This document shows positions 46,113 through 60,807 of a stretch of 64,000 bases of DNA, one piece after another. The notes under the pieces are model-generated. The model was not told the origin of the DNA. It ran no database searches and was given only the letters and a program-made list of their open reading frames with translations. Origin of the DNA: Streptomyces nigrescens (GTDB lineage: Bacteria > Actinomycetota > Actinomycetes > Streptomycetales > Streptomycetaceae). The stretch spans positions 6,820,001-6,884,000 of the forward strand of contig AP026073.1 in assembly GCA_024349765.1 (NCBI GenBank). Reading direction: 5' to 3'. Every line of letters starts with the position of its first letter. The stretch's first letter is position 1. Made by a program: the position numbers and the translations under genes.

Positions 46113-47387
46113 TCACCGATGCTCCGTCATGTCCGGTATGGGCAACGGGCGTTTCTCCAGTGCCGCCGCCATCACGTCCGGAAACCGATCAGGCGTACAG
46201 GCGAACGCCGGGGCACCCAGGGCCGCGAGGGCCGCGGCGTGCTCCCGGTCGTAGGCCGGCGCGCCCTCGTCGGACAGCGCGAGCAGCGTCACGAACTGCA
46301 CCCCGGACGCCTTCATCGCGGCGACCCGCTTCAGCATCTCGTCCCGGATGCCGCCCTCGTAGAGGTCGCTGATGAGCACGACGACGGTCTCGGCGGGGCG
46401 GGTGATGCGGGACTGGCAGTAGGCGAGCGCGCGGTTGATGTCCGTACCGCCGCCGAGCTGGGTGCCGAAGAGGACGTCGACCGGGTCGTCCAGCTGGTCC
46501 GTCAGGTCGACCACCGCGGTGTCGAAGACGACCAGCCGGGTGTCCAGCGCCCGCATCGAGGCCAGCACCGCCCCGAACACCGAGGCGTAGACGACCGAGG
46601 CGGCCATCGAACCGGACTGGTCGATGCAGAGCACCACGTCCTTCTTCACGGACTGCGCGGCCCGGCCGTAGCCGATCAGCCGCTCGGGGACGACCGTGCG
46701 GTACTCGGGGAGGTAGTTCTTGAGGTTGGCGCGGATCGTGCGGTCCCAGTCGATGTCGCGGTGGCGCGGGCGGGCGATCCGGGCGGAGCGGTCCAGCGCG
46801 CCGGTGAGCGTGGCGCGGGTGCGGGTCGCGAGCTTCTTCTCCAGCTGCTCGACGACCTTGCGGACCACGGCCCGTGCGGTCTCCCTGGTCGTCTCCGGCA
46901 TGACCCTGTTGAGGGAGAGCAGGGTGCCCACCAGATGGACGTCCGCCTCGACCGCCTCCAGCATCTCCGGCTCCAGGAGGAGCGCGGAGAGCCCCAGCCG
47001 GTCGATGGCGTCCCGCTGCATCACCTGCACCACGGAGGACGGGAAGTACGTCCGGATGTCGCCGAGCCAGCGCGCCACCCCGGGCGCCGAGGCGCCGAGG
47101 CCGGCCGTGCGCCGGCTGCCGTCCGCGGCCCGGCCGCCGGGTTCCTTCGTACGGCCGTAGAGCGAGGCCAGCGCCCCGTCCATCGCGGCGTCCCGCCCGC
47201 GCAGCTCATGTCCCGTACCGTCCGCCCCGCCGCCCCCGAGCACCAGCCGCCAGCGGCGGAGGCGTTCGGCTTCGGGGGTGGGGGTGGGGGCGGGGGTCGA
47301 AGGTGAGACCGCGGGGGCTGCCGGGGTGGCCGCCGCGGTGGGGGCTGCTGTCGTTCCGGCCTGGGGGCCGGGAAGTCGGCTGGTCAA
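46113..47387 (-). CDS. VWA-domain protein of a MoxR–DUF5682–VWA cluster
   Basis: 424 aa from a TTG at 47387, which overlaps the upstream stop and has AGGAG nine bases before it. Residues ~250–420 form a von Willebrand A domain with a complete MIDAS: DQSGS (256–260), a Thr in LGGGTDINRALAYC, and Asp in LISDLYEGG. The N-terminal half is helical (LRGRDAAMDGALASLYG, SVVQVMQRDAIDRLGLSALL), as in YehP-like proteins. VWA proteins of this type are thought to bind metal-dependent ligands for a MoxR ATPase. Third gene of the operon. Confidence 0.85.
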   Translation of the reverse strand: MTSRLPGPQAGTTAAPTAAATPAAPAVSPSTPAPTPTPEAERLRRWRLVLGGGGADGTGHELRGRDAAMDGALASLYGRTKEPGGRAADGSRRTAGLGASAPGVARWLGDIRTYFPSSVVQVMQRDAIDRLGLSALLLEPEMLEAVEADVHLVGTLLSLNRVMPETTRETARAVVRKVVEQLEKKLATRTRATLTGALDRSARIARPRHRDIDWDRTIRANLKNYLPEYRTVVPERLIGYGRAAQSVKKDVVLCIDQSGSMAASVVYASVFGAVLASMRALDTRLVVFDTAVVDLTDQLDDPVDVLFGTQLGGGTDINRALAYCQSRITRPAETVVVLISDLYEGGIRDEMLKRVAAMKASGVQFVTLLALSDEGAPAYDREHAAALAALGAPAFACTPDRFPDVMAAALEKRPLPIPDMTEHR

Positions 47388-50110: not shown

Positions 50111-51249
50111 GCGCTCACCTCACGGCAGGCGCGGTAGAAGTCCTTCCAGCCGTCGCGCTCGCGCACGACCGTTTCGAGGTACTCCTGCCAGACGACCCGG
50201 TCGGCGGCCGGATCGCGGACCACCGCACCCAGGATGCCCGCGGCCACGTCGCCAGCGCGCAGCACGCCGTCACCGAAGTGGGTGGCGAGCGCCAGGCCGT
50301 TGGTCACCACCGAGATGGCCTCGGCCGTGGAGAGCGTGCCGGACGGGGACTTGAGCTTGGTCCGGCCGTCGGTGGTGAGGCCGTCGCGCAGCTCGCGGAA
50401 GACCGTGACGACCCGGCGGATCTCCTCCAGACCCTCCGGCGCGGGCGGCAGCTCCAGCGAACGCCCTATCTGGCCGACCCGGCGCGAGACGATGTCCACC
50501 TCGTCCTCCGGCGTCGCGGGCAGCGGCAGGACGACGGTGTTGAAGCGGCGGCGCAGCGCGCTGGAGAGTTCGTTGACCCCGCGGTCGCGGTCGTTGGCCG
50601 TGGCGATCAGGTTGAAACCGCGGACGGCCTGCACCTCCTGGCCCAGCTCGGGGATGGGCAGGGTCTTCTCCGACAGGACCGTGATGAGCGTGTCCTGGAC
50701 GTCGGCGGGGATCCGGGTGAGCTCCTCCACCCGCGCCGTCATGCCCTGCGCCATCGCGCGCATCACCGGGCTGGGCACCAGCGCCTCCCGGCTGGGACCG
50801 TGGGCGAGCAACTGGGCGTAGTTCCAGCCGTAGCGGATCGCCTCTTCCGGGGTGCCGGCGGTGCCCTGCACCAGCAGGGTGGAGTCGCCGCTGACCGCCG
50901 CGGCCAGATGCTCCGACACCCAGGTCTTGGCGGTGCCGGGCACACCGAGCAGGAGCAGCGCGCGGTCGGTCGCGAGGGTCGTCACGGCGACCTCGACGAT
51001 CCGGCGCGGGCCGACGTATTTGGGTGTGATGACCGTGCCGTCGGCGAGCGTGCCGCCGAGCAGGTACGTGGCGACCGCCCACGGCGAGAGCCGCCAGCGC
51101 GCCGGCCGCGGCCGGTCGTCGGCCGCGGCGAGGGCCTTGAGTTCGCCGGCGAAACTGTCCTCGGCGTGCGGGCGCAGCGCCTGGCCGTCCGCGGCCCCCT
51201 CCGCCGTCGCCTGCGTGCCGTCCGTCGTGTCGTTGATGAGCTCGGGCAT
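50107..51249 (-). CDS. MoxR-type AAA ATPase
   Basis: 380 aa from ATG 51249. Walker A GVPGTAKT lies at 102–109. The MoxR insert VPSPVMRAMAQGMTARVEEL precedes helix 2, and the sensor segment GFNLIATANDRDRGVNELSS and arginine finger region SALRRRFNTVVLPLP are present. MoxR ATPases act as chaperones that activate or assemble partners through VWA proteins. Here the VWA and DUF5682 genes follow with ATGA and TTGA overlaps, so all three are translationally coupled. A damage-type promoter lies ~70–90 bases upstream. Confidence 0.88.
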   Translation of the reverse strand: MPELINDTTDGTQATAEGAADGQALRPHAEDSFAGELKALAAADDRPRPARWRLSPWAVATYLLGGTLADGTVITPKYVGPRRIVEVAVTTLATDRALLLLGVPGTAKTWVSEHLAAAVSGDSTLLVQGTAGTPEEAIRYGWNYAQLLAHGPSREALVPSPVMRAMAQGMTARVEELTRIPADVQDTLITVLSEKTLPIPELGQEVQAVRGFNLIATANDRDRGVNELSSALRRRFNTVVLPLPATPEDEVDIVSRRVGQIGRSLELPPAPEGLEEIRRVVTVFRELRDGLTTDGRTKLKSPSGTLSTAEAISVVTNGLALATHFGDGVLRAGDVAAGILGAVVRDPAADRVVWQEYLETVVRERDGWKDFYRACREVSA

Positions 51250-51318
51250 GGGTCCCCCTCGTCGCACATATCCGCGGCCGGCGCCCGGGAAAAATCCCTT
51301 CGGCCGCTTGCTGGATCC

Positions 51319-51413
51319 AGCCTGCACCACGCCACTGACAACGCCCCGAAAACCCTCTCTGACCTGCGAGTTCGCCGCTCGGGAAGGGCGTTGTCAGTGG
51401 GCCGTCGTAGCGT
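51319..51413. promoter_or_regulatory. Bidirectional PafBC/RecA-NDp-type promoter in a perfect inverted repeat
   Basis: CCACTGACAACGCCC (51332–51346) and its perfect complement (51386–51400) face outward. On the plus strand TTGTCAGTG (51391–51399), eight bases, then TAGCGT (51408–51413) fits TTGTCRGTG-N8-TAnnnT exactly. The ATG of the SWIM gene follows seven bases later, so the transcript is leaderless. On the minus strand TTGTCAGTG (51341–51333), eight bases, then CAGGCT (51324–51319) differs by one base from TAnnnT and serves the MoxR operon. Confidence 0.8.
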
Positions 51414-51420
51414 CGGGGAC

Positions 51421-52806
51421 ATGAATCCGCAGGGGGAACGCTGGACGACGGATCAGGTGCTGGCACTGGCGCCTGACGAGGCATCACGCAAGGCGAGCGG
51501 CCGGCTCGCGGCGCCCGGCCCGTGGTCGGAGACCGGCGCGGACGGCAGCGCGGTGTGGGGGCTGTGCAAGGGCAGCGGGAAGAAGCCGTATCAGGCGGTC
51601 GTGGACTTCAAGGGGCCTGCTTTCACATGTAGTTGCCCGAGCTTCAAGTTCCCGTGCAAGCACGCGCTGGGACTGCTGCTGCTCTGGGCGGGGGACGAGG
51701 GCGCGGTGGCGGCCGGCGAGCCGCCGCAGTGGGCCGGCGAGTGGCTGGCCGCGCGCCGGGAGCGCGCGGAGCGGTCGGCGGCCGGGCCGTCCGGTGCCGC
51801 CGCCACGCGCGCGCCGGCCGATCCGGAGGCCGCCCGGCGCCGGGCGGAGCGCCGGATGCAGCGGATCGGCGCGGGCGCCATGGAGCTGGAGCAGCGGCTG
51901 GCGGATCTGCTGCAGTCCGGCCTGGCCACCGCCGGCCGGGAGGGTGGCGGTAGCCAGGCCGACGGCGGCGGGGGACGCTCGTGGGACGAGACGGCCGCGC
52001 GGATGGTCGACGCCCAGGCGCCCGGTCTCGCCTCCCGGGTGCGGGAGTTGGGCTCGGTGGTGGCCTCCGGTGCCGACTGGCCGGCCCGCCTGCTGGAGGA
52101 GTGCGCGCTGCTGCACCTCCTCGAGCAGGGCTTCCTCGGTATCGACCGGCTGCCGGCCCCGCTGGCGGCCACGGTCCGCGCCCGGGTCGGGCTGACCACG
52201 GACGCCGCGGACCTGCTGACCGGCCCCGATGCGGCGCCGGTGCGGGACCGCTGGCTGGTGCTGGCCCAGCAGGACGGCGACGACGGCAGGCTGACCACCC
52301 GCCGGATCTTCCTGCGCGGCGAGCGCACCGGCCGGATGGCGCTGCACCTGTCCTTCGCCGGAGCCAACCGCCCGCTGGAGCTGGCGCTGCCCACCGGTCT
52401 GGTCATCGATGCGGACCTCGCCTACTACCCCGGCGCCCGTCCGCTGCGCGCCACCCTGGGCGAGCGGTACGCCCCGGCCACCCCGGGCCCGGTCCCGCCG
52501 GGCTGCGGTATCGACGCCGCCCTGGCCGCGTACGGCGATGCGCTGCGCGACGACCCCTGGCTGGACTCCTGGCCGGTGGTGCTCGCCGATGTCACCCCGA
52601 TACCGGGCCGCGACGGCCGGGGCTGGCAACTGGCCGACGCGGACGGGGAGTCGGCGCTGCCGCTGGACCCGCGTTGCCTGGGCGGTACGGGCGTCTGGCA
52701 GCTGGCCGCCATCTCGGGCGGCGCGCCGATCACGGTCTTCGGCGAGTGCGGCCACCGCGGCTTCCTTCCGCTGACCGCCTGGGACCCGTCCCCGGTGTCC
52801 CTGTGA
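51421..52806 (+). CDS. SWIM zinc-finger protein (YehQ-like)
   Basis: 461 aa. The SWIM motif FTCSCPSFKFPCKH gives CxCx6CxH with Cys70, Cys72, Cys79 and His81. The N-terminal RWTTDQVLALAPDEASRKAS is typical of family members. The remainder is α/β with no enzyme motif I recognise (LLHLLEQGFLGIDRLPAPL, RWLVLAQQDGDDGR). SWIM domains bind DNA or proteins. The ATG at 51421 lies directly behind a damage-type promoter. The DUF5691 gene follows 72 bp later, and the MoxR–DUF5682–VWA operon is divergent. Confidence 0.87.
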   Translation: MNPQGERWTTDQVLALAPDEASRKASGRLAAPGPWSETGADGSAVWGLCKGSGKKPYQAVVDFKGPAFTCSCPSFKFPCKHALGLLLLWAGDEGAVAAGEPPQWAGEWLAARRERAERSAAGPSGAAATRAPADPEAARRRAERRMQRIGAGAMELEQRLADLLQSGLATAGREGGGSQADGGGGRSWDETAARMVDAQAPGLASRVRELGSVVASGADWPARLLEECALLHLLEQGFLGIDRLPAPLAATVRARVGLTTDAADLLTGPDAAPVRDRWLVLAQQDGDDGRLTTRRIFLRGERTGRMALHLSFAGANRPLELALPTGLVIDADLAYYPGARPLRATLGERYAPATPGPVPPGCGIDAALAAYGDALRDDPWLDSWPVVLADVTPIPGRDGRGWQLADADGESALPLDPRCLGGTGVWQLAAISGGAPITVFGECGHRGFLPLTAWDPSPVSL

Positions 52807-58297: not shown

Positions 58298-60775
58298 TCA
58301 GAGCTTCTCCACCGGTGCGTACCGCAGCAGCAGCCGCTTGGGCTTCTCGCCGCCGAAGTCGATCGTCGCCTCGGCGTTGTCCCCGCTGCCCTTGACGGCG
58401 ACGACCGTGCCCAGCCCGAAGCTGTCGTGGGTGACGCGGTCGCCGACGGCCAGCGAGACCACCTGGCGGTCTCCGGTCCGGCGGGTGGCGAACCCGCTCG
58501 GTCCCTTGGCGCGGGACGAGGACAGCGAGGAGCCGATGCCCCCGCCGAAGCCGCCACCGCCGCCGCCCCGGGACGAGAGCCCGCCCATCGACGCGGACGG
58601 GGTCGCCGGGCCGGTCCGCTTCCACTCGACGTAGTCGTCCGGGATCTCCTCCAGGAACCGCGACGGCGGGTTGTACGAGGGCTGGCCCCAGGCGCTGCGC
58701 ATCGTCGAGCGGGTGACGTACAGCCGCTCGCGGGCGCGGGTGATGCCGACGTACGCCAGCCGGCGCTCCTCCTCCAGCTCCTTGGTCTGGCCCAGCGCGC
58801 GCATGTGCGGGAAGACGCCGTCCTCCATGCCGGTCAGGAAGACGACGGGGAATTCCAGGCCCTTGGCGGTGTGCAGCGTCATGAGGGTGACCACGCCGCT
58901 GCCCTCCTCGTCCTCGTCGGGGATCTGGTCGGAGTCGGCGACCAGCGCGACCTGTTCGAGGAAGTCGGAGAGGGTGCCGGGGTTCTCCTCGCCGCGGTCC
59001 TGCTCGAATTCCAGGGCGACCGCGGCGAGTTCCTGGAGGTTCTCGATCCGGGTCTCGTCCTGCGGGTCGGTGGACGCCTGGAGCTCGGCGAGGTAGCCCG
59101 TGCGCTCCAGGACGGCCTCCAGGATCGTGGCGGGCCCGGCGCCGGACTCCACGATCGTCCGCAGCTCCTCCATCAGGACGTTGAAGCGCTTGACGGCGTT
59201 GGCGGAGCGGGCCGCCATGCCGTACGCCTCGTCGACCCGGCGCAGGGCCTGCGGGAAGGTGATCTTCTCGCGGAGCGACAGGGCGTCGATCATCGCCTCG
59301 GCGCGCTCGCCGATGCCGCGCTTGGGGACGTTCAGGATGCGGCGCAGCGGGACGCTGTCCTCGGGGTTGGCGAGCACGCGCAGGTACGCGAGGACGTCGC
59401 GGACCTCCTTGCGCTCGTAGAAGCGCACTCCGCCGACGACCTTGTAGGGCAGCCCGACCCGGATGAGGATCTCCTCGAAGACGCGGGACTGGGCGTTGGT
59501 GCGGTAGAAGACGGCGACGTCGCCGGCCTTGGCGTCGCCGGCGTCGGTCAGCCGGTCGATCTCGTCGGCGACGAACTGCGCCTCGTCGTGCTCGGTGTCG
59601 GCGACATAGCCGTTGATCTTGGGGCCGGCGCCGGCGTCGGTCCAGAGGTTCTTGGGGCGGCGGTTCTCGTTGCGCTCGATGACCGCGTTGGCGGCCGACA
59701 GGATGGTCTGCGAGGAGCGGTAGTTCTGCTCCAGCAGGATCGTGGTCGCGTCCGGGTAGTCCTCCTCGAACTGGAGGATGTTGCGGATCGTGGCGCCGCG
59801 GAAGGCGTAGATCGACTGGTCGGCGTCGCCGACGACGCACAGCTCGGCGGCGGGGATGTCGGCGGTGCCGGTCCCCACGAGCTCGCGGACGAGGGTGTAC
59901 TGGGCGTGGTTGGTGTCCTGGTACTCGTCGACGAGGACGTGCCGGAAGCGGCGGCGGTAGTGCTCGGCGACGTCCGGGAAGGCCTGGAGGAGGTTGACCG
60001 TCGTCATGATGATGTCGTCGAAGTCCAGGGCGTTGGCCTCGCGCAGCCGCGCCTGGTACATCGCGTACGCCTCGGCCAGGGTCTTCTCGAAGCCGTCGGC
60101 GGCCGTCCCCGCGAAGGTCTCCTCGTCGATGAGCTCGTTCTTGAGGTTGGAGATCTTCGCGCTGAAGGACTTGGGCGGGAAGCGCTTGGGGTCGAGGTCC
60201 AGATCGCGGCAGACCAGGGACATCAGGCGCTTGGAGTCGGCGGCGTCGTAGATCGAGAACGAGGACGTGAAGCCGAGCTTCTTGGACTCGCGACGCAGGA
60301 TCCGCACGCAGGCGCTGTGGAAGGTGGAGACCCACATGGCGTTGGCGCGCGGGCCGACCAGCTGCTCGACGCGCTCCTTCATCTCGCCGGCGGCCTTGTT
60401 CGTGAAGGTGATCGCGAGTATCTGGCCGGGGTGGACGTGCCGCTCGGCGAGGAGGTGCGCGATGCGGTGGGTGAGCACCCGGGTCTTGCCGGAGCCGGCG
60501 CCGGCGACGATCAGCAGCGGGCCGCCGGTGTGCACCACGGCGGCCTTCTGCTGGTCGTTGAGCCCCTCGAGCAGCGCGGCGGGGTCGATGGCCGGGCGGG
60601 CGGCGCCGTCGCGGTAGTACGCGTCCCTGGGCACGGGCGCGTCGAACCGCCCGCCGAACAGGTCGGCGGGGATCTCCTCGGGGACCGGCCCGTGCTCGTC
60701 CTCGGGAGGCGGCGGGGGCTCCTCGTCCTTGTGGCCGAGGTCCGCCAGGAAGCTGTCGTCAAAGAGGCTGCTCAT
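58298..60775 (-). CDS. pcrA: ATP-dependent DNA helicase PcrA/UvrD
   Basis: 825 aa from ATG 60775. It is a superfamily 1 3'–5' helicase acting in nucleotide-excision repair, replication restart and removal of RecA or RNA polymerase. Motifs: Q-motif LNDQQKAAVVHTGGPLLIVA, Walker A GAGSGKT (92–98), motif Ia ITFTNKAAGEMKERV, Walker B VDEYQDTN, motif III VVGDADQSIYAFRGA, motif IV QNYRSSQTIL, motif V MTLHTAKGLEFPVVF, motif VI RRLAYVGITRARERL. The C-terminus has a Gly/Ser linker and a KOW/tudor-like end (GDRVTHDSFGLGTVVAVKG). The -10 of a damage-type promoter lies ten bases before the ATG. Confidence 0.96.
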   Translation of the reverse strand: MSSLFDDSFLADLGHKDEEPPPPPEDEHGPVPEEIPADLFGGRFDAPVPRDAYYRDGAARPAIDPAALLEGLNDQQKAAVVHTGGPLLIVAGAGSGKTRVLTHRIAHLLAERHVHPGQILAITFTNKAAGEMKERVEQLVGPRANAMWVSTFHSACVRILRRESKKLGFTSSFSIYDAADSKRLMSLVCRDLDLDPKRFPPKSFSAKISNLKNELIDEETFAGTAADGFEKTLAEAYAMYQARLREANALDFDDIIMTTVNLLQAFPDVAEHYRRRFRHVLVDEYQDTNHAQYTLVRELVGTGTADIPAAELCVVGDADQSIYAFRGATIRNILQFEEDYPDATTILLEQNYRSSQTILSAANAVIERNENRRPKNLWTDAGAGPKINGYVADTEHDEAQFVADEIDRLTDAGDAKAGDVAVFYRTNAQSRVFEEILIRVGLPYKVVGGVRFYERKEVRDVLAYLRVLANPEDSVPLRRILNVPKRGIGERAEAMIDALSLREKITFPQALRRVDEAYGMAARSANAVKRFNVLMEELRTIVESGAGPATILEAVLERTGYLAELQASTDPQDETRIENLQELAAVALEFEQDRGEENPGTLSDFLEQVALVADSDQIPDEDEEGSGVVTLMTLHTAKGLEFPVVFLTGMEDGVFPHMRALGQTKELEEERRLAYVGITRARERLYVTRSTMRSAWGQPSYNPPSRFLEEIPDDYVEWKRTGPATPSASMGGLSSRGGGGGGFGGGIGSSLSSSRAKGPSGFATRRTGDRQVVSLAVGDRVTHDSFGLGTVVAVKGSGDNAEATIDFGGEKPKRLLLRYAPVEKL

Positions 60776-60784
60776 CGCCCACCG

Positions 60785-60807
60785 AGTCTAGGCCGCCGCA
60801 CCGACAG
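60785..60807 (-). promoter_or_regulatory. PafBC/RecA-NDp-type promoter of pcrA
   Basis: On the minus strand CTGTCGGTG (60807–60799), eight bases, then TAGACT (60790–60785). This fits TTGTCRGTG-N8-TAnnnT except for the first base. The ATG at 60775 lies nine bases after the -10, so the leader is only a few bases. The site is expected to respond to DNA damage through PafBC in actinobacteria. Confidence 0.7.

Follow-up and report, generated by a model that had tools for sequence, protein, structure and literature searches.

Two operons point away from each other out of a common intergenic region of the window, by which we mean the whole 64-kb stretch of DNA analysed. Genes for a SWIM zinc-finger protein and a DUF5691 protein lie on the plus strand, and genes for MoxR, DUF5682 and VWA proteins on the minus strand (Table 1). 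In the minus-strand operon the MoxR stop and the DUF5682 start overlap by 4 nt, and the VWA gene most likely starts at the TTG at 47387, whose overlap with the DUF5682 stop codon reads TTGA. The MoxR gene starts at the ATG at 51249, with GAGGGGG upstream, and the relatives of its product in the PDB are, by sequence, NorQ and Midasin.

Table 1. Genes and promoter features at the SWIM/MoxR locus (positions within the window)
Feature	Position	Strand	Basis
VWA (CoxE-like) protein	46113..47387	-	Pfam VWA_CoxE; start codons
DUF5682 protein, 908 aa	47384..50110	-	Pfam PF18934, E 3.2e-294
MoxR-type AAA+ ATPase, 380 aa	50107..51249	-	Pfam AAA_5
Intergenic region between the divergent operons	51250-51420		
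Candidate MoxR-DUF5682-VWA-arm promoter, PafBC type, non-canonical -10: TTGTCAGTG-GCGTGGTG-CAGGCT	51319..51341	-	motif scan, conservation
Inverted repeat, left arm, 15 bp, perfect	51332..51346		
Putative accessory element GCAGGTCAG, helically phased; its start lies 26 nt upstream of that of the minus core	51359..51367	-	
Inverted repeat, right arm, 15 bp, perfect	51386..51400		
Candidate SWIM-DUF5691-arm promoter, PafBC/RecA-NDp type: TTGTCAGTG-N8-TAGCGT	51391..51413	+	motif scan, conservation
SWIM zinc-finger protein, 461 aa	51421..52806	+	Pfam SWIM; start position conserved
DUF5691 protein, 595 aa	52879..54666	+	Pfam PF18944, E 8.5e-174

The original prediction described a perfect 15-bp inverted repeat in this region that presents one and the same motif outward on both strands, and these letters were verified. 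The arms are separated by 39 nt; the plus strand reads TTGTCAGTG-GGCCGTCG-TAGCGT, followed after 7 nt by the ATG of the SWIM gene, and the minus strand reads TTGTCAGTG-GCGTGGTG-CAGGCT. The pattern TTGTCRGTG-N8-TAnnnT is the RecA-NDp/PafBC motif. The SWIM arm carries an exact TTGTCRGTG core at the -26 position (51391-51399), together with the N8 spacing and a TAnnnT hexamer. The core of the MoxR arm (51341-51333) is likewise exact and the N8 spacing is kept, but CAGGCT stands where TAnnnT would be expected. Among the 77 further motif sites analysed elsewhere in the genome (see below), GGGCG are the commonest bases at the five positions before the core and a G often follows it, so that the repeat extends over 15 bp and not 9.

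The SWIM ATG lies 7 nt past the -10 box, which fits the expectation for a leaderless mRNA; we predict such a transcript with its start at 51421, and the conserved 7-nt distance agrees with it. The predicted moxR mRNA would carry a 5' leader of about 60 nt. Back-to-back pairs of the form CACYGACAA-N20-50-TTGTCRGTG occur at a single place in the genome, namely the SWIM/MoxR locus; in five other Streptomyces genomes such a pair was found once and at the SWIM locus in four, and not at all in one.

With up to two mismatches, TTGTCRGTG-N8-TAnnnT was matched four times across the 64 kb of the window; shuffling gave 1.04 matches on average and 3 at most. A one-mismatch copy, CTGTCGGTG-CGGCGGCC-TAGACT, is found on the minus strand at 60785-60807, 9 nt before an ATG at 60775; the gene behind it encodes a PcrA/UvrD-type helicase (58298-60775), and the scan gave no second motif beside it.

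Conservation of the twin motifs in Streptomyces

A search for the motif at the same place in other Streptomyces genomes had been proposed as a check of the original prediction, and it showed both cores to be conserved upstream of the SWIM and MoxR orthologues. From 110 Streptomyces loci, 12 were dropped (five without SWIM and seven without an aligned SWIM start), and five of the remaining 98 were identical over 120 nt to another locus, leaving 93 non-redundant ones. The plus core with TAnnnT was present in 98/98 readable loci with at most one core mismatch, and thus in all 93 non-redundant loci. Both cores, the minus one with NAnnnT, were found in 93/93 under the same limit of one mismatch each. 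At positions 8-10 after the plus hexamer the bases A, T and G were found in 89, 87 and 90 of the 93 loci, respectively. The plus spacer is far less conserved than the minus spacer.

The distance between the cores varies widely, being 25-95 in 69 of the 93 loci and 164-742 bp in the other 24, and each wide-gap promoter remains with its own gene. In the six wide gaps inspected (L045, L053, L067, L069, L082, L104), a small lipoprotein-like gene, which we take to resemble MmpS, lies inside and reads toward moxR. The prediction of a bidirectional promoter is supported in that a conserved motif is present on each strand, with two refinements: the two motifs are separate promoters around a third element and not one palindrome, and the MoxR arm departs from TAnnnT.

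This departure is itself conserved. The minus hexamer is CAnnnT in 93/93 loci and TAnnnT in none, and ahead of it T, G, G, T and G occupy the five preceding positions in 91, 92, 92, 92 and 93 of the 93 loci, respectively. Among A-core sites of the genome without T at -12, TGn occurs just upstream of the hexamer in 19/36, against 0/34 canonical A-core sites (Fisher p 1.6e-7); TG directly adjoining the hexamer, as at moxR and lhr, was found in 5/36 against 0/34 (p 0.054). GGTG-CAnnnT, the form seen in the MoxR arm, recurs at the lhr site. Since TGn is enriched where the T at -12 is absent, the MoxR arm would seem to be a variant compensated by TG and not a promoter in decay. It may be able to act like a RecA-NDp/PafBC promoter, and, as it fails TAnnnT, we class it as a variant and not as a canonical member.

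The genome also holds a second class of PafBC-type sites (L217-L251), which have no T at -12 and often TGn upstream; they precede, among others, polA, lhr and the genes for a Y-family polymerase and for pol III delta.

The motif across the genome and its presumed reader

The exact pattern TTGTCRGTG-N8-TAnnnT has 43 copies in the 9.33-Mb genome, and the reversed pattern has none. Our pool comprised these 43 canonical sites and 36 A-core variant sites, the latter having a base other than T at -12. With the SWIM/MoxR locus left out of each, 42 and 35 of them made up the 77 other sites analysed; 19 variant sites with a G core are not part of this set. With up to six starts kept per site, the start codon of the chosen downstream frame lay 5-9 nt after the hexamer in 39/77 sites, while the other 5-nt bins up to 59 held 3-8 each. 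Of these 39 start codons, 36 sit 6 or 7 nt past the hexamer. Such a pile-up is the pattern that leaderless mRNAs would give.

Proteins were scanned for 44 of the 77 sites (33 canonical, 11 variant). Behind canonical sites, 12 of the 33 resemble proteins of DNA replication or repair: RecA, UvrB, UvrC, RuvC, a MgsA/RarA-like ATPase, DnaX, uracil-DNA glycosylase, O6-methylguanine methyltransferase, an AlkZ-like protein, an Exo_endo_phos (exonuclease III-like) protein, a UvrD-like helicase and a RecD2-HHH protein. The recA gene of this genome (site L206) bears the same motif as the SWIM arm. Four of the 11 scanned variant-site proteins are repair- or replication-like as well, being DNA polymerase I, an Lhr-type helicase, a Y-family polymerase and the pol III delta subunit. 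The claim that the motif is a damage-type promoter is supported in that it precedes damage genes of this genome, in which pafBC is present.

Six canonical sites (L181-L186) are gathered within 34 kb at C1:1746461-1779780, and their genes encode a WGR/beta-propeller protein, O6-methylguanine methyltransferase, UvrB, a TetR-type regulator, UvrC and one further product. In E. coli, a WGR gene (yehF) is likewise found near yehLMPQ.

Both PafB and PafC are encoded in the genome (HTH_PafC E 7e-31). Two Pup-ligase-family genes precede them, the second at a distance of about 1.8 kb; the two frames between that gene and pafBC are presumably FKBP-like. Altogether, the genome has eight WYL-domain matches. 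One WYL-domain regulator gene (L244, C1:1482271-1484593) begins 6 nt past a motif TTGTCAGTG-N8-CATCAT.

In mycobacteria, single-stranded DNA activates PafBC, after which the SigA polymerase uses promoters with a -26 element (PMC11804915); PafBC reads the RecA-NDp motif there, and the motif is known beyond mycobacteria (PMC8223512). For Streptomyces, RecA-NDp promoters are known for recA and for the UV-inducible SCO6735 (PMC5087735). In a 2022 paper on LexA of S. venezuelae, an initial search suggested that the PafBC motif of M. smegmatis is not conserved, and the question was left open (PMC9380542). In contrast, we found the A-core motif in 61/61 Streptomyces genomes, a set not known to include S. 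venezuelae, with 3-40 copies each and three control matches across all 61.

A third element and loci outside Streptomyces

Between the two cores, a third element, GCAGGTCAG, was found in 90 of the 93 Streptomyces loci with one mismatch allowed and W and R at two positions; at this limit it was not found in three. Its best match always lies 14-15 or 25-27 nt upstream of one of the cores, start to start and on the same strand, facing the plus core in 48 loci and the minus core in 42. The core spacings of the close pairs fall into the classes 25-27, 36-38, 47-51 and 60-61 in 66 of 69 cases (the others being 84, 92 and 95), with about 11.75 bp from class to class; both these classes and the distance windows were set after the data were seen. 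The class changed at least 13 times among the 65 close-spaced rows of a SWIM tree, a quick tree of 92 loci with long branches, and it is on these changes that the phasing argument rests.

Elsewhere in the genome, the 77 other sites gave nine same-strand matches to GCAGGTCAG in phased windows (seven at 14-15 or 25-27 nt and two at 37-38), whereas 1000 shuffles gave 0.55 on average and never more than 4; of the opposite-strand matches, 0/12 were in phase. At most of these 77 sites the element was not found. We infer that GCAGGTCAG would be bound by a factor that must face the polymerase complex. It is tempting to go one step further and to suppose a type of two-site PafBC promoter, in which GCAGGTCAG, read by another factor or by a second PafBC, occupies a fixed helix face one to three turns upstream of the core; here, a single shared GCAGGTCAG would couple two diverging, PafBC-loaded polymerases and both halves of the damage machine would fire together. 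This idea is tentative, and we regard it as possible rather than probable.

SWIM is present in 15 of 17 Streptomycetaceae genera. In 20 loci from 14 genera of the family other than Streptomyces, the plus motif with up to two core mismatches was found in 20/20 (in L261 by a separate check), and a minus core in all 14 loci with a divergent MoxR. A first scan gave the full minus motif in 12 of these 14, with the hexamer CAnnnT in 11 and GAAGGT in L266; it was recovered in L276 by a second scan, and L261 shows 8/9 core letters upstream. In the four loci of genera g115 and g118, the SWIM-DUF5691 and MoxR-DUF5682 pairs are collinear, with about 0.8-5.6 kb between them. There, a one-mismatch core (L277) and a two-mismatch core (L278) lie upstream of MoxR, and no convincing core was found upstream of MoxR in L279 and L280. 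As for the third element, the family genera other than Streptomyces have 11 close pairs, seven with GCAGGTCAG (two of them with one mismatch) at in-phase core spacings of 25, 37, 38, 38, 38, 49 and 49, and four without it at spacings of 29, 29, 44 and 52; it was not found in 13 of the 20 loci.

Within the class, DUF5691 occurs in 63/296 genomes and 18/114 genera. Outside the genus it was matched in 36 class genomes, of which 34 were fetched (two matches being fragments or lying at a contig end); a SWIM stretch was missing from one locus, so that 33 were counted. Outside the family, loci showing all four genes have the order SWIM-DUF5691-MoxR-DUF5682 on one strand. A core with at most two mismatches, N8 and TAnnnT 6-8 nt before the SWIM start was found in 18/33 of these loci (three exact cores, seven with one mismatch and eight with two), several of the 18 being close relatives of one another; the shuffle expectation was printed as 0.0, and as 0.003 for one locus. 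The SWIM N-terminus was unaligned in seven of the 33, four of which are among the 18. The element GCAGGTCAG at 14-15 or 25-27 nt was found in none of the 18. By the same definition the other 15 of the 33 loci are without the motif, and five of them have a weaker version 6-7 nt before the ATG. A PafB-like protein is encoded in 34/34 of the outside genomes, including those without the motif. The simplest reading of these arrangements would be that the ancestor was a single operon behind one damage-type promoter, which in Streptomycetaceae broke up into two diverging halves, each of which came to have a promoter of this type.

At seven loci (L149, L160-L162 and L164-L166; six of f18 and one of f4), the SWIM frame is 953-1104 codons long and runs through the DUF5691 stretch. 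Such long frames suggest a fusion, with SWIM and DUF5691 working as a unit.

A proposed damage switch and related machines

Twin motifs between both halves of the system make their joint switch-on after DNA damage likely. With a probability of roughly 0.8, two outward motifs of PafBC/RecA-NDp type, one per strand, switch on both operons when damage activates PafBC. In such a scenario, single-stranded DNA would activate PafBC, and active PafBC, by analogy with mycobacteria, would enable the polymerase carrying the housekeeping sigma factor to initiate at both sites. The SWIM mRNA would be leaderless and begin at its own ATG, the MoxR promoter with its CAnnnT and upstream TG would act as an extended -10 variant, and a factor at GCAGGTCAG would assist from the same helix face. 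Together, the genes are predicted to encode a YehLMPQ-type machine for ATP-driven remodelling, which the SWIM protein, speculatively, might bring to damaged DNA.

The same letters could be taken as one palindromic operator, or as an RNA hairpin, with a symmetric dimer controlling both genes. Perfect 15-bp arms and the phased spacing of the close pairs would suit this, but it becomes very improbable once the arms are seen 164-742 bp apart in 24 of the 93 loci, each with its own gene, and with the lipoprotein-like gene between them in the six wide gaps inspected. A single motif, moreover, precedes recA and dozens of other genes, and the PafBC motif is termed non-palindromic in PMC6789036. It is also conceivable that of the two arms the SWIM one alone is a PafBC promoter; the minus core would then be a relic or serve as an activator site, and moxR would be transcribed from another promoter. 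The invariable CAnnnT, never TAnnnT, in 93/93 loci speaks for such a division; we nevertheless consider it quite unlikely, given that the moxR-side core, the TGGTG spacer and the A and T of the hexamer are conserved, also where the promoters lie far apart, and that other repair genes use TG-compensated variants.

A further question is which protein reads the motif. With eight WYL matches in the genome, a different WYL regulator could be the main reader, and the WYL gene at L244 itself has such a motif; alternatively, as GCAGGTCAG is phase-locked, a second factor bound there could be the real sensor beside PafBC. We see either version as unlikely, though not far-fetched: the motif marks the recA-uvr-ruv set, pafBC is present, and it is PafBC that reads the RecA-NDp motif in mycobacteria (PMC8223512). 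That LexA, through the SOS response, controls both operons in place of PafBC is hardly credible, even in a context of DNA repair. The LexA box is GAAC-N4-GTTC, and this exact pattern does not occur in the 64-kb window.

Several points go against the reading of two PafBC-type promoters that we prefer: the MoxR arm lacks TAnnnT, 15 of the 33 outside loci lack the motif although a PafB-like protein is encoded there, the MoxR cores in g115 and g118 are weak, the eight WYL matches leave room for another reader, and the initial search in S. venezuelae suggested that the motif is not conserved (PMC9380542). Overall, the original observation is confirmed, and its interpretation, by which DNA damage switches on both operons together, is supported on sequence grounds; to be added are the phased element, which is new, and the non-canonical form of the MoxR promoter.

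The regulator and the promoter class are known already. We know of no bidirectional RecA-NDp/PafBC promoter described before. To our knowledge, and within the open-access literature searched, neither a bidirectional form with three elements nor the assignment of this machine to the regulon has been described. If our reading is true, a predicted ATP-driven machine belongs to the DNA-damage response, and this stress context provides an entry point to a little-studied ATPase system of five proteins (MoxR, VWA, DUF5682, DUF5691 and SWIM). It also bears on whether Streptomyces has a LexA-independent, PafBC-type damage response, a question raised in PMC9380542, and the conserved CAnnnT class and GCAGGTCAG with its phasing would add testable rules to the PafBC promoter grammar.

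Like the RecA-NDp promoters of mycobacteria and other actinobacteria, the SWIM arm has the core TTGTCRGTG, N8 and TAnnnT, and the motif stands before recA and excision-repair genes in a genome with pafBC. Unlike them, two motifs are placed here back to back around a third phased element, one of them with a conserved CAnnnT, and many genes of this genome are predicted to be leaderless. The S. coelicolor macrodomain gene SCO6735 (PMC5087735) is another case of a RecA-NDp promoter in Streptomyces, UV-inducible and kept in several species of the genus, but with a single promoter and an unrelated product.

As for the proteins, three known systems did not match at their cut-offs: RavA-ViaA (19.1 bits for the ViaA equivalog against a cut-off of 500), the bpMoxR ternary conflict system PF20030 (22.8 bits against 27) and known anti-phage defence (PADLOC models at E <= 0.001, with 0 families for 5/5 proteins). 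In the open-access literature we found nothing on a SWIM zinc finger with MoxR and VWA, nor on DUF5682 or DUF5691; what was found for yehL/M/P/Q seems to be the announcement of a genome and a resource of strains. The MoxR-VWA chaperones of the NorQ-NorD and CoxE type resemble our pair, in that MoxR matches NorQ by sequence and the VWA protein is CoxE-like; here, in contrast, the partners are DUF5682, SWIM and DUF5691. By its domains, the predicted machine is of the E. coli YehLMPQ type with DUF5691 added, as genes for an AAA_5 MoxR, DUF5682, VWA_CoxE and SWIM stand together at this locus just as they lie side by side in yehLMPQ. The E. coli genes are expected to be regulated otherwise, and they differ in that SWIM comes last, all lie on one strand and none of the four proteins matches DUF5691.
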